Shown: one piece after another, positions 1-5,034 of the stretch | Numbering within the stretch: the first letter of the stretch is position 1 | How the letters are laid out: every line of letters begins with the position of its first letter | Virus record (IMG/VR): IMGVR_UViG_3300024520_000475 | Span: 1 to 24,749 of that record | Length of the DNA stretch: 24,749 nucleotides | Direction: 5' to 3' (one strand) | Origin: a virus | Position numbers and translations under genes: made by a program | The notes under the pieces: model-generated | What the model saw: the letters and a program-made list of their open reading frames with translations, nothing else | Database searches by the model: none | Told to the model about the DNA's origin: nothing

Positions 1-117
1 GGCGTTAGAGACGCTATTGGTAGAGATATTCTGTATAAGAATGATCTTTCAGATTTAGAAGAAATAATAGACGAGCTAAACAGCGGCAACATCATAAAAG
101 TTTGGCATGAGTATTGA
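1..117 (+). CDS. 3' end of a small hypothetical gene (cassette-borne)
   Basis: The reading frame is open from the first base to a TGA at 115-117 and gives 38 C-terminal residues, ending in IIKVWHEY. The start lies outside the window. I do not recognise the family; the visible part is acidic and probably helical. Codon use is AT-rich (about 35% G+C by hand count), unlike the phage genes from 666 onward. The stop codon sits one base before the first attC-like site, the usual position of a gene in an integron cassette. Function is unknown. Confidence 0.55.
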   Translation, partial: GVRDAIGRDILYKNDLSDLEEIIDELNSGNIIKVWHEY

Positions 118-118
118 A

Positions 119-180
119 ATATAACCTTAAGCTTATTTGTTGTGAGCTTGCGAACAATCAATTACAGCGCCTTGTTAGGC
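119..180 (+). other. attC-like integron recombination site 1
   Basis: The 62-base segment starts with ATATAAC (119-125, R'' box position; one mismatch to RYYYAAC) and ends with GTTAGGC (174-180, exact GTTRRRY R' box). Between them the halves form an imperfect palindrome. After 5-base unpaired spacers on each side, the left arm GCTTATTTG TTGT pairs with the reverse complement of the right arm, GCTGTAATTGATTGT, leaving two unpaired extra bases on one arm. Unpaired extra bases and unpaired central spacers are typical of attC sites folded as single strands. No integron integrase gene lies in the window. Confidence 0.7.
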
Positions 181-199
181 GCATTACGGAGCGAGAACT

Positions 200-352
200 A
201 TGGATAAGACAGAACTTATTGAGTATTTAAAAGAAGCGCTAGCTATAGAAGTCAAGCAGGAAAAGGGTTTTTATGGTGAGAAGCATACAGAAGTGGTTTT
301 AACGCTTGAAGGCGAGGCAATTTCTTCTGATTACTTAGATTTAGATTTGTAG
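200..352 (+). CDS. 50-residue hypothetical protein in an integron-like cassette
   Basis: ATG at 200 is preceded by a GGAG ribosome-binding site about 10 bases upstream, and the frame ends at TAG 350-352. The protein is small and acidic, starts MDKTELIEYLKEAL (probable helix), and has two strand-like stretches around HTEVVLTLEGEAIS. It resembles, from memory only, short phage proteins with a 'LDGEEIS' ending; I cannot assign a function. The gene fills the unit between two attC-like sites: the start is 20 bases after the first R' box and the stop is one base before the next R'' box, as in a promoterless integron cassette. Confidence 0.7.
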   Translation: MDKTELIEYLKEALAIEVKQEKGFYGEKHTEVVLTLEGEAISSDYLDLDL

Positions 353-353
353 T

Positions 354-412
354 GCCTAACCATTGCAAACAACAGCGAACGAAGTGAGTCAGATTGATTT
401 GCTTTGTTATAT
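354..412 (+). other. attC-like integron recombination site 2
   Basis: The 59-base segment starts with GCCTAAC (354-360, exact RYYYAAC) and ends with GTTATAT (406-412; one mismatch to GTTRRRY). The arms pair as GCAAACAACAG against GCAAATCAATCTG (the reverse complement of the right arm), leaving extra unpaired T residues on one arm. GCCTAAC is the exact reverse complement of the GTTAGGC that opens the same cassette at 174, as expected when R'' and R' come from one circular cassette. GTTATAT is likewise the exact reverse complement of the R'' box of site 1. Confidence 0.7.
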
Positions 413-431: not shown

Positions 432-629
432 ATGATTAATATAGATGAGCCTTGGCCTGAGTGGAGCAACCAAGACTCCTATAAAGGTATGGCTGTTCAT
501 GCCTTATACACACAACCAGCATATATGAAGCGTGATGTAGGGACTAGGGCGAGGTGTGGAGCCGAGGCTGCGTGTCTCTACACAGAAGATGAATTAAGAG
601 TGACCTGCAAGAGGTGTAGCCGTAGGTAG
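432..629 (+). CDS. Small cysteine-rich (zinc-ribbon-like) protein, 65 residues
   Basis: The start at ATG 432 is chosen because AAGGAGAAAGG precedes it at good spacing; an in-frame ATG at 363 lies inside the attC-like site and is unlikely. Cys42, Cys48, Cys59 and Cys62 form a C-x5-C...C-x2-C pattern in the C-terminal third, which could bind one zinc. The protein ends in a basic CKRCSRR tail. The family is not recognised. The gene starts 20 bases after an R' box, the same leader length as the gene at 200, and is bracketed by the inverted repeat TTTGTTATAT (403-412) / ATATAACAAA (638-647). Base composition is about 46% G+C, closer to the phage genes than to the first two cassette genes. Confidence 0.6.
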   Translation: MINIDEPWPEWSNQDSYKGMAVHALYTQPAYMKRDVGTRARCGAEAACLYTEDELRVTCKRCSRR

Positions 630-637
630 CATTAAGA

Positions 638-647
638 ATATAACAAA
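638..647 (+). other. Possible truncated third attC (R'' half-site)
   Basis: ATATAACAAA lies 9 bases after the stop of the cysteine-rich gene and is the exact reverse complement of TTTGTTATAT at 403-412. If the cassette begins at 407 with TTATAT, its own R'' box should read ATATAAC, and it does (638-644). No full attC follows: a GTTGAAT matching GTTRRRY occurs at 658-664, but this would make only a 27-base site without arms. It is either a decayed attC at the phage junction or chance; a 10-base match within a few hundred AT-rich bases is suggestive only. Confidence 0.35.
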
Positions 648-665
648 ACGATAGAGGGTTGAATA

Positions 666-872
666 ATGAAAAGCTTTAAGTGTGGGGAGTGCAAGGAGGG
701 TAAAGAGGGTGTCCCAGCTTATGGAGGGGAGGGGGAGGAAGTGTGTAAAGATTGTTTTGTGGAAGGGGTTAACAAGCAGTTATCCTTCCTGTGGACAATG
801 CAAGCGTTAGCTGGATTGGCACTGGGGAGTATTGGTGGTATTACATTGTTCTTAATGAAGAGGGCGGGATGA
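666..872 (+). CDS. Small zinc-finger plus membrane-anchor protein, 68 residues
   Basis: The N-terminal half carries two CxxC pairs (Cys6/Cys9 and Cys27/Cys30), a probable zinc knuckle spaced by a Gly/Glu-rich loop. Residues about 42-63 form one hydrophobic segment (ALAGLALGSIGGITLFL) followed by KRAG, so the protein probably sits in the inner membrane with its finger in the cytoplasm. The stop TGA overlaps the ATG of the next gene (ATGATGA), implying translational coupling. The family is unknown; the role may be an early host-directed or membrane-tethering one, but this is speculation. Confidence 0.65.
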   Translation: MKSFKCGECKEGKEGVPAYGGEGEEVCKDCFVEGVNKQLSFLWTMQALAGLALGSIGGITLFLMKRAG

Positions 873-1225
873 TGATTTGGGCGGCCCTACAAAAGGTTCA
901 AAGGATTGAAAGGGCGAAAGAGAGGGAAGAGAGGGAAGAGAGTGATCGATTCTACGGGGAGATATTGAAGAATATGAAGAATAGGAAGTCTAGCCTAGAC
1001 AGGCAAGTAGGTGGTGATCACTATAAGAGCCAGAGGGTAGAGCCACTGGTACTTACATACTTAAACTTTGGATACGAAGGGCTGAGAGCTTCTGTGTATA
1101 CCAAAGTGAATAAGTACATGACGCGTGATAAGGGGCAGCACATAGAGAACTTAGAGAAGGCGGCCCACTGCCTAGAGATATTAATAGAGAAAGCAAAGTT
1201 GGAGCTGAAGGGGGAAACAACATAG
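869..1225 (+). CDS. DUF3310-type phage protein
   Basis: The 118-residue protein has an N-terminal charged coiled-coil region (about 8-40, rich in Glu/Arg) and a C-terminal DUF3310-like domain. VGGDHYKS lies at 47-54, followed by VEPL, then KVNKYMTR at 79-86 and ENLEKAAHCLEILIE at 93-107, the conserved elements of that family. DUF3310 proteins are common in phages, often near nucleotide-metabolism genes; their biochemical role is not established to my knowledge. The start at 869 is chosen because GAGGGCGGG precedes it and it gives the ATGA overlap with the upstream gene. A longer in-frame start at 791 would overlap that gene heavily. The stop TAG overlaps the GTG start of the reductase. Confidence 0.8.
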   Translation: MMIWAALQKVQRIERAKEREEREESDRFYGEILKNMKNRKSSLDRQVGGDHYKSQRVEPLVLTYLNFGYEGLRASVYTKVNKYMTRDKGQHIENLEKAAHCLEILIEKAKLELKGETT

Positions 1226-3180
1226 TGGTTAGTACAAGAGCAGAGATTGTAACGCGTAGGACTTATAACCGTCCATTAGACAAGAAAGGAGAGACGTTTG
1301 AAACATGGGAAGAGACGATCTCAAGGGTTATCTCACACCAAAAGTGGCTATGGGAGAGGGCGCAATCCTCCCCCCTCAAAGAGGAGCAACTATCTGAGCT
1401 GGAGGAGCTACGAGATTTTATGCTTCATCGAAAACTTAGTATGGCAGGAAGAACCCTCTGGCTTGGTGGTACTGAGGTCGGACAGACTAGGGAGGCTAGC
1501 ATGTTCAACTGCTCTTTCCTTAAAGTTCAGACGGTCTATGACGTTGTTGACGCTTTGTGGCTATTGCTCAACGGTTGTGGAGTCGGGTTCTCACCGGCTA
1601 TCGGTACCCTCAACGGGTTCAGTTCAGTTATTAAGACTGTTGAATTCAAACGCTGTACCCGTGAGCCCTCTTATCGAGGTATGGAAGATAATGAGGAGAC
1701 AATCGAAGATGGGGTGTGGACTATCAAGATCGGGGACTCGGCCACGGCCTGGGCCAGATCGGTAGGGAAGATACTGGCCGGTAAGACTAAGGTACACACA
1801 CTGGTTATTGATACCACTGAGATACGTGGCCCAGGTGAACGCTTAGAAGGGTATGGATGGATCTGTGCTGGAGACTCACCGTTAGTCAAAGCTCTTGAAG
1901 GGATCTGTAAGCTAATGAACCGTCGAGCTGGTTGCCTATTAACTCGCATCGATATACTGGACTTAATGAACTGGCTCGGCACTGTGCTGTCTACTAGGCG
2001 TTCAGCAGAGATTGCGCTATTCTCAGTCGATGAACCTGAGTGGGAAGAGTTTGCCGTAGCCAAGAAAGATTGCTGGAAGGATAATGTACAACGCTACCAA
2101 TCCAATAATAGCCTCGGTTTTGCTAACGCTCCTAGCCGCTCACAGCTTGTTCATATATTTAGACTTATGGAAGATGCTGGGGGTAGCGAACCGGGTTTTA
2201 TTAACACTGCTAGTGCTCGTAAACGTGCTCCTTGGTTCTATGGTATCAATCCCTGTGCAGAAATACTTCTTGGAGATAAGTCATTCTGTAACCTTACCGA
2301 GATCGATGTCGGAAAGTTTAAAGGGGATGCAGCAGGACTGGATAGGGCTCACTGGATCGCAGCCAGAGCTAACTACCGTCAAACCTGTGTTAACTTGCGA
2401 GACGGAATCTTGCAAGAAGCTTGGCACTTAAACAACCAGTTCTTACGCCTCCTGGGTGTAGGGCATACTGGTATTGTTAAGCGTCCAGATATGACCGAGT
2501 ATGACCTAACCTCCTTACAGCGTACAGCAATAGCTGCTGGCTACAGTATGGCAGATGAACTGGATCTACCTAGACCTAAGAACATCACCACTGTTAAGCC
2601 ATCTGGTACGCTAAGTAAGATCATGGATACTACGGAGGGGATTCACAAGCCACTAGGGAAGTACATACTGAATAATATTAACTTCAGTAAGTATGATCCA
2701 ATCCTCCCTAAGATGCGGGAGGCAGGGTATAGGGTGTGGGATAACCCATCTGATGATGAAGCCATCTTAGTAACCTTCCCTGTCAGTCATGACGGTGTAG
2801 AGTTCGATGTGGTAGATGGTGTGGAAGTAAACTTGGAGAGTGCAATAGATCAGCTTGAACGCTATAAGATGTATCAGCTGTACTACACTCAACAGAACAC
2901 TTCAGTAACCATTAGCTATGATTCAGAAGAAGTGGAAGGGATAATCGATTGGCTATTGGCCAACTGGGATATCTATGTAGGTGTGAGCTTTATCTATCGT
3001 GATGATCCAACTAAGACCGCGGCAGATCTAGGGTATGCTTACTTACCACAGGAAGTGGTGACTAAGGAAGTGTATGATGAATACTCTGCTGGACTGAAAG
3101 AAGTCAGCTTAGATGATGTGAATACGCTAGAAGAATTGAAAGAAGAAGAGTGCGCTACTGGCGCTTGTCCAATTAAATAG
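1225..3180 (+). CDS. nrdJ: Class II (adenosylcobalamin-dependent) ribonucleotide reductase, monomeric type
   Basis: This enzyme reduces ribonucleotides to deoxyribonucleotides using a coenzyme B12-generated thiyl radical, feeding phage DNA synthesis in the cytoplasm. The 651 residues carry the expected elements: MFNCSF with Cys96 (one of the reducing pair), GVGFSP near 119-124, INPCAEI at 341-347 giving Asn342, Cys344 (thiyl radical) and Glu346, SFCNLTE with Cys355 (second reducing Cys), VKPSGT at 457-462, and a C-terminal CATGAC (Cys643, Cys648) that passes electrons from thioredoxin. The layout matches the monomeric Lactobacillus-type enzyme (around 740 residues), somewhat shorter. All catalytic residues are present, so it should be active. 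Translation starts at GTG 1225 after AAGGGGG, overlapping the upstream stop. No B subunit gene accompanies it, as expected for class II. Confidence 0.95.
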   Translation: MVSTRAEIVTRRTYNRPLDKKGETFETWEETISRVISHQKWLWERAQSSPLKEEQLSELEELRDFMLHRKLSMAGRTLWLGGTEVGQTREASMFNCSFLKVQTVYDVVDALWLLLNGCGVGFSPAIGTLNGFSSVIKTVEFKRCTREPSYRGMEDNEETIEDGVWTIKIGDSATAWARSVGKILAGKTKVHTLVIDTTEIRGPGERLEGYGWICAGDSPLVKALEGICKLMNRRAGCLLTRIDILDLMNWLGTVLSTRRSAEIALFSVDEPEWEEFAVAKKDCWKDNVQRYQSNNSLGFANAPSRSQLVHIFRLMEDAGGSEPGFINTASARKRAPWFYGINPCAEILLGDKSFCNLTEIDVGKFKGDAAGLDRAHWIAARANYRQTCVNLRDGILQEAWHLNNQFLRLLGVGHTGIVKRPDMTEYDLTSLQRTAIAAGYSMADELDLPRPKNITTVKPSGTLSKIMDTTEGIHKPLGKYILNNINFSKYDPILPKMREAGYRVWDNPSDDEAILVTFPVSHDGVEFDVVDGVEVNLESAIDQLERYKMYQLYYTQQNTSVTISYDSEEVEGIIDWLLANWDIYVGVSFIYRDDPTKTAADLGYAYLPQEVVTKEVYDEYSAGLKEVSLDDVNTLEELKEEECATGACPIK

Positions 3181-4731: not shown

Positions 4732-5034
4732 TCAACTACCCCTTCTCTTATTGCCAAACGGTAAAATCTGTACGAACCCACGCCATATCTCCCCTGGGGA
4801 GGGCAGGAGCCAACCCAGTACCATTAGAATCATAAACTCTATTGGCACCTCTTGGACGTTGGTTATGCTCTCTGCCCTATCCCCCAACTGCACTTCCTGG
4901 TTCTTGTCACCCAGAGTCGTGTCCACCTCCAGGGAAGGGCCACCGCCACTCCCCAGAGATAGTAGATCCATAGCTGAGCAGCCACTAAGCAATAACACCA
5001 GGCTTAGGAATACACTTCTCAGTCCTCTCTTCAT
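4732..5034 (-). CDS. Small phage lipoprotein with C-terminal membrane segment (o-spanin-like)
   Basis: The 100-residue product begins with a type II signal peptide: basic MKRGLR, a hydrophobic core, then lipobox LSGC with Cys19 as lipid-modified residue. A polar middle contains VDTTLGDKNQEVQLGD. A second hydrophobic segment (about 65-78, PIEFMILMVLGWLL) is followed by PSPGEIWRG and a basic end. A lipoprotein that also spans the membrane is uncommon; similar small proteins occur, from memory, in T7-like phages near lysis genes. Serine at +2 suggests outer-membrane sorting. The start overlaps the upstream stop (TAATG). It could be an outer-membrane spanin partner or an exclusion lipoprotein. 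Confidence 0.6.
   Translation of the reverse strand: MKRGLRSVFLSLVLLLSGCSAMDLLSLGSGGGPSLEVDTTLGDKNQEVQLGDRAESITNVQEVPIEFMILMVLGWLLPSPGEIWRGFVQILPFGNKRRGS

Follow-up and report, generated by a model that had tools for sequence, protein, structure and literature searches.

Integron-type gene cassettes at a fixed, attI-like site in a lytic-type podophage

Among the early genes of a lytic-type podophage there is probably a fixed position occupied by an integron-type cassette array, for which a short phage-borne site serves as attI. The stretch of DNA analyzed here (the window, a 24,749-base IMG/VR record, IMGVR_UViG_3300024520_000475) is a fragment of a T7-like podophage with gene calls for ribonucleotide reductase, terminase, head-tail connector, major head, tail, and internal virion proteins, and its terminase is 60%–63% identical to the terminases of Salinivibrio phage CW02, Pseudomonas PA11, and Vibrio phages. 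Relatives were retrieved via the conserved phage backbone, including the ribonucleotide reductase, which is 100% identical in contig L002 (IMGVR_UViG_3300027856_000470) and 99% identical in contig L003 (3300033144_003947). Over 4.4 kb of backbone, the identity to the window is 99.7% for L002 and 97.4% for L003. A second cassette-bearing phage, L087 (3300024062_001125), is described below, and all four contigs are fragments. L003 includes a left arm that is absent from the window, with DNA polymerase, nuclease, and phosphoesterase genes (named by eye, except for the phosphoesterase, which was searched). The window also encodes an Rz-like spanin-type protein (phrog_1804, E=2.8e-5; 4732–5034, minus strand), and no match to PF00959 lysozyme was found in the window or L003, both of which are fragments.

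A first-pass annotation, made from the sequence letters, had described two attC sites of integron type at the left edge of this phage. The boxes on which it relied are all where it placed them (ATATAAC at 119, GTTAGGC at 174, GCCTAAC at 354, and GTTATAT at 406), and its further observations were reproduced: stop codons end one base ahead of a box (at 117 and 352), ATG codons begin 20 bases past a box (at 200 and 432), and G+C content shifts from 38% (1–406) to 46% (407–640), with 48% in the remaining phage. The pairing of GTTAGGC at 174 with GCCTAAC at 354 as the two ends of one cassette, B, also stands, with an exact 7-nt match. What had to be revised was the layout, which comprises three cassettes, one of them partial. 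A third box had been overlooked, ATATAAC at 638; because GTTATATTC at 406 pairs with it over 9 bases, 360–643 is a cassette rather than phage DNA. The order, taken leftwards from the phage edge, is A-B-C (Table 1). Outside its attC body, cassette A has no homology to L002 or L003. L002 contains cassette C with its whole 96-aa ORF and its end boxes, GTTATATTT, which match over 9 nt. End boxes agree over 7–10 nt in all six cassettes (A and B of the window, the shared C, and X, D, and Lys of L002), and the true pairing is the best among the 720 permutations of the six. The window and L087 have two attCs each and L002 has four, of which one is degenerate, so that each contig carries at least the two that define a cassette array; apart from the best site, several are individually weak, and some boxes have one or two mismatches.

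Table 1. Cassettes, attC sites, and neighboring phage features at the left end of the window
Feature	Position	Strand	Evidence or remark
Cassette C, partial, contig ends within	1..124	-	Identical to L002 through window base 125, diverging at 126
Cassette C ORF, open at left	1-117	+	Partial in window
attC of cassette B	119..180	- (canonical polarity)	Structural 6.3 canonical vs 3.3 reversed; model 16.1 bits
Cassette B, end boxes GTTAGGC / GCCTAAC	125..359	-	Predicted cuts at 124/125 and 359/360; exact 7-nt match
Cassette B ORF, 50 aa, phage family phrog_6906 with no assigned function	200..352	+	E=8.5e-9
attC of cassette A	354..412	-	Model 33.2 bits; structural 6.3 vs 3.6
Cassette A, adjoining the phage site	360..643	-	GTTATATTC at 406 / GAATATAAC at 636, own end boxes match over 9 nt
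Cassette A ORF, 65 aa, no known family	432..629	+	No family match
Candidate phage-borne attI-like half-site	644..664	-	ATTCAACCCTCTATCGTTTTG, cut, then TTAT of first cassette
First phage gene right of the edge site, 68 aa, no assigned function	666..872	+	Conserved in L002 and L003
Ribonucleotide reductase	1225..3180	+	phrog_367, E=6e-168; conserved phage backbone

Two kinds of search were used to evaluate the attC sites. A structural scan, designed on the known attC form (box-spacer-stem architecture with one extra base), scores both window sites at 6.3 on the minus strand versus 3.3–3.6 for the mirrored form, and no other site reaches 6 in the remaining 46 kb of the window, L002, and L003. 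Sites with attC box and stem architecture occur at a background of 0.005–0.011 per kb in 835 kb of relatives, compared with two in 0.66 kb of the window and three in 1.9 kb of L002; the clustering of such sites at the array exceeds chance. The first-pass annotation had also called for a covariance model, and one site scores well above background with a model built solely from published attCs (PH101, TJE1, Vibrio p16, and Shewanella M16-3, picked with the structural scan): 354–412 on the minus strand, at 33.2 bits (E=1.8e-5 in 221 kb). The site at 119–180, also on the minus strand, scores 16.1 bits (E=0.59 in 221 kb), by itself not significant, and on the plus strand the window sites score 3.8 bits or less. 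Minus-strand scores in L002 are 26.7 bits (915–973), 17.9 (1547–1598), and 10.3 (1189–1239). The model found no match at E<=5 across 679 kb of relatives, and no Rfam family reached its gathering score. A plus-strand match at 767–812 of the window (17.9 bits, E=0.19 in 221 kb) lies within the 68-aa gene that L002 and L003 also have, shows no L-stem pairing, and is probably due to chance. In another lysozyme-bearing phage contig, L091, the model scores 4712–4762 at 23.6 bits (E=0.011), with model and structural strand calls in disagreement.

The attC direction had initially been taken as plus, the same as the ORFs, and this reading was revised. Structural polarity is minus, with the extra base at the canonical place, in seven of eight sites, and the array is read leftwards from the phage edge. 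Cassette genes are usually, not absolutely, co-oriented with attC polarity; here the ORFs are on the plus strand and the attC polarity is minus, with the cassette genes pointing towards the edge in the same direction as the phage genes on both sides. In two published controls, TJE1 and Vibrio p16, the scan places attCs and ORFs on the same strand, and the polarity test is therefore valid where it can be checked. The attC of the proximal L002 cassette appears degenerate (structural 2.2 versus 2.9). The covariance model prefers the plus strand for the lysozyme-cassette attCs (10.7 in L002 and 10.2 in L087); both values are non-significant and conflict with the structural call. Stems of the array sites are weak, in-array hairpins fold no better than shuffled sequences, and their minimum free energy fold is uninformative. 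Reconstituted single-cassette sites fold somewhat better (z of -1.1 to -2.9; two PH101 sites, -2.4 and -2.7), and the extrahelical base in the folded strand is mostly C or A here, versus the conserved G. In Pseudoalteromonas phage PH101 (L080 25919–27987, corresponding to H101 75919–77987), four attCs are on the plus strand and several annotated array genes on the minus strand; judging from this array, other virulent phages may also carry cassette genes in reverse.

Comparison of the window with its two closest relatives locates the limit of the array at a single base. To the left of base 644 the window, L002, and L003 all differ, and from base 644 onwards all three agree. The first-pass annotation had proposed looking for further attC sites, and more were found at the same position in L002, whose array from the phage edge is X-C-D-Lys, whereas L003 has at this position a phage gene, no attC, and no cassette. 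The window and L002 share cassette C without a difference as far as the box and diverge from the next base; counted from the phage site, it is the third cassette in the window and the second in L002. The unshared cassettes are proximal and the shared one distal, the order that addition of new cassettes at the edge would produce. The repeated nature of the attC bodies is evident from 55 identical bases shared by the attC of cassette A and that of a different cassette in L002 (915–973). A cassette content and order that differ at one exact base, plus an empty-site relative, form the pattern expected of present use, and the earlier proposal that a lytic-type phage carries integron-type cassettes is supported. 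In L016, L017, and L018, the homolog of the window ORF ending at 1225 comes right after the phosphoesterase, and thus the edge site sits where gene content varies across the group. None of 65 loci gathered by the phosphoesterase has an attC at the array position, and a search of IMG/VR with the proteins of cassettes B and C found no relatives beyond L002. The boundary 19-mer was found in IMG/VR, beyond the relatives, in three contigs with one identical unrelated sequence, which we judged to be chance.

The phage side of this boundary is itself informative. The three-way agreement begins at C-AAAACGATAG, the minus strand of which reads CTATCGTTTTG, cut, TTAT, and the edge at 643/644 coincides with the predicted G/TT cut of an integron integrase. 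In the sequence CTATCGTTTTG/TTAT, a 7-base spacer separates an L-type box from an R box, and the whole nearly matches the L'-R' half of the lysozyme-cassette attC of L002 and L087. The earlier description, of two sites beside a phage, missed this resemblance of the phage edge to half an attC. The edge may be left over from an attC or may have been retained for use; in both cases its form is that of an attI simple site. The distance of about 7 bases between its L and R boxes and the position of the change-point both fit an attI, a role that the edge may have. The half-site motif also occurs at 1118 in L110, within a gene-like stretch, and this instance was dismissed as chance.

The L087 contig, a podophage-like fragment, was found by a search with the L002 endolysin. 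A tblastn search of its 11.2 kb against the proteins of the window and L003 gave no match, and its edge has the same half-site core, AACAAAACGATAG at 2536. From the edge, it carries a lysozyme unit, an attC, an 81-aa cassette with ends that match over 9 nt, a second attC, and a phage-type gene. The left edge of an array is visible only in this contig, where phage-type genes flank the array on both sides. Its lysozyme unit contains an HTH protein (75% identical to that of L002), a small protein, an endolysin (62%), and a 72-aa ORF, and has end boxes that do not match each other; the small protein, in the place of CsrA, is 20% identical over the alignment, and its homology to CsrA is not clear. 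Both attCs are on the minus strand, with structural scores of 7.0 and 6.0. The lysozyme attC is 86.8% identical between L002 and L087, versus 66%–73% for the genes, and its stem tip changes from CGGC/GCCG to CCC/GGG with pairs kept. The attC is more conserved than the genes and the stem tip is compensated, which points to selection acting on the hairpin. A gapped search of IMG/VR for this attC recovered L002 and L087 only.

In L002, one cassette (58–966) holds three genes in a row, encoding an HTH-like protein (phrog_4973), CsrA (PF02599, E=1e-14), and a GH24 phage endolysin (phage lysozyme PF00959, E=3e-13). Together with the phrog_6906 protein of cassette B, these are the recognized families, and the recognizable cargo is, by family assignment, phage-type. 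The nearest phage relatives of the L002 lysozyme are in Shewanella, Pseudoalteromonas, and Marinobacter phages, which is only a hint to the host. Exact attC sequences were found in none of 84,980 genomes searched for a host, a gapped attC pattern gave one match, to a Clostridiales MAG, that was judged to be chance, and array DNA had no match on plasmids.

Several other explanations were weighed. The arrays could have been frozen on arrival from a host chromosomal integron, with phages differing through homologous recombination or deletion at attC repeats and no integrase acting. Phages recombine readily, the repeated attC bodies (55 identical bases in two cassettes) would allow homologous exchange, a half-attC-like phage edge could be a deletion remnant, and no integrase is seen in the phage records. 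However, the phage junctions, where three sequences join, share just the box (about 5–6 bases), which is too short for ordinary homologous recombination; further, cassette C switches neighbor exactly at the box, and there are phage-type genes among the cargo. We consider this explanation unlikely.

Quite unlikely, too, is an array on the plus strand, with ORFs and attCs co-oriented and the last attC truncated at the phage, although ORFs do end near plus-strand R'' boxes, like those of ordinary cassettes, the model favors plus for the two lysozyme-cassette sites, and the phage edge resembles a broken attC. Such an array would need independent cuts at the same base to account for the differing last cassettes of the window and L002 and for the empty L003, and it conflicts with the structural polarity, the strand of the best model matches, and the TJE1 and Vibrio p16 controls. 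The first-pass annotation had raised a chimeric assembly or a phage inserted in a chromosomal integron; both are unlikely, given a different array at the same base in a second contig and a cassette-free third contig. For a chimera of host cassette DNA joined in silico to a phage contig, one could cite that the window and L002 both end inside the array and that short k-mers could misorder cassettes near 357–411, in the 55-base attC repeats. Yet the sequence shared by the two arrays at the junction is too short to mislead an assembler, and the array of a different phage, L087, is flanked by phage-type genes, leaving this a very improbable explanation.

Our preferred reading is that of a phage-borne array in use at its own site. 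No tyrosine recombinase (PF00589) was found in the records of the window, L002, L003, and L087, all fragments, and none of these holds a complete integron. Since none was seen in the phages, the integrase is probably the host's and would act in trans, its most likely source being a marine gammaproteobacterium with a chromosomal integron. In attC sites the extrahelical base determines strand and cut point, and its inversion shifts the cut to the opposite box (PMC2727003). By this rule the plus strand would be used, with cuts at 124/125, 359/360, and 643/644, the last being the observed edge. The folded attC strand (plus in the window) would recombine with the phage half-site, cassettes would be gained next to the half-site, and they would be lost or reordered via attC x attC recombination. 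Phage genes flanking the array are presumably transcribed left to right towards the site, which would favor cassettes of reversed polarity; selection would retain those with genes against the usual attC polarity, read together with the phage genes. As the recognizable cargo is phage-type, the likely role would be rapid exchange of accessory phage genes, lysis included. More tentatively, it is possible that lytic phages have a cassette economy of their own, in which phage genes, including an endolysin, travel as attC cassettes between unrelated phages via a conserved half-attC site, in a mirror-image layout with genes facing the site, using the integron integrase of the infected cell.

Cassettes in virulent phages were already known. 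Qi et al. (2023) listed 17 phage CALINs (attC clusters without an integrase), of which three belong to characterized virulent phages, and found that IntI1 integrated at five of six tested phage sites, virulent-phage attCs included (PMC9892861). The CALINs of TJE1, P12002L, and PH101 (PMC9892861) likewise consist of tandem attC-type sites in lytic phage genomes with no adjacent integrase, and those of PH101 resemble the sites of the window, with some annotated array genes on the opposite strand. These three are single isolates, with no sister genomes carrying other arrays, no empty site, and no phage-side attachment site described. In contrast, the phages analyzed here show one-base turnover between near-identical genomes, a conserved half-site, an endolysin cassette in two different phages, and all recognized ORFs opposite to attC polarity. 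The novel features are cassette turnover at one fixed position, an empty site, phage-type cargo, and reversed gene polarity. In our literature search, virulent-phage cassettes appeared only in Qi et al. (2023; PMC9892861) and one review, and no endolysin cassette was reported.

Two other settings invite comparison. Sedentary chromosomal integrons of marine Gammaproteobacteria have repeated attC bodies, cassette-specific end boxes, and proximal cassette gain, the first two of which are shared here and the third probably so; unlike them, the present array is in a lytic-type phage, shows no intI, and has genes that face the attachment site. Loot et al. reportedly described, in 2024, integron cassettes at secondary sites, or attG. 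Insertion of cassettes outside integrons, at secondary sites or attG, was documented by Souque et al. (2023; PMC10127599). As in the reading proposed here, insertion takes place outside an integron, at a short G/TT-type site, by an integrase encoded elsewhere. However, those sites are degenerate and scattered, whereas here one site, with an L-type half, is conserved across phages and is followed by several cassettes in a row.

Earlier reports of attCs in single virulent phage genomes left the question of whether these are relics or in use, and the near-identical phages studied here address it. The phage half-site is a compact, testable attachment site. If an integrase is responsible, phages would be trading lysis and regulatory genes through integrons, and cassettes could move between host populations in this way too. 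The arrays suggest phages swapping genes with machinery best known from the spread of bacterial resistance genes.
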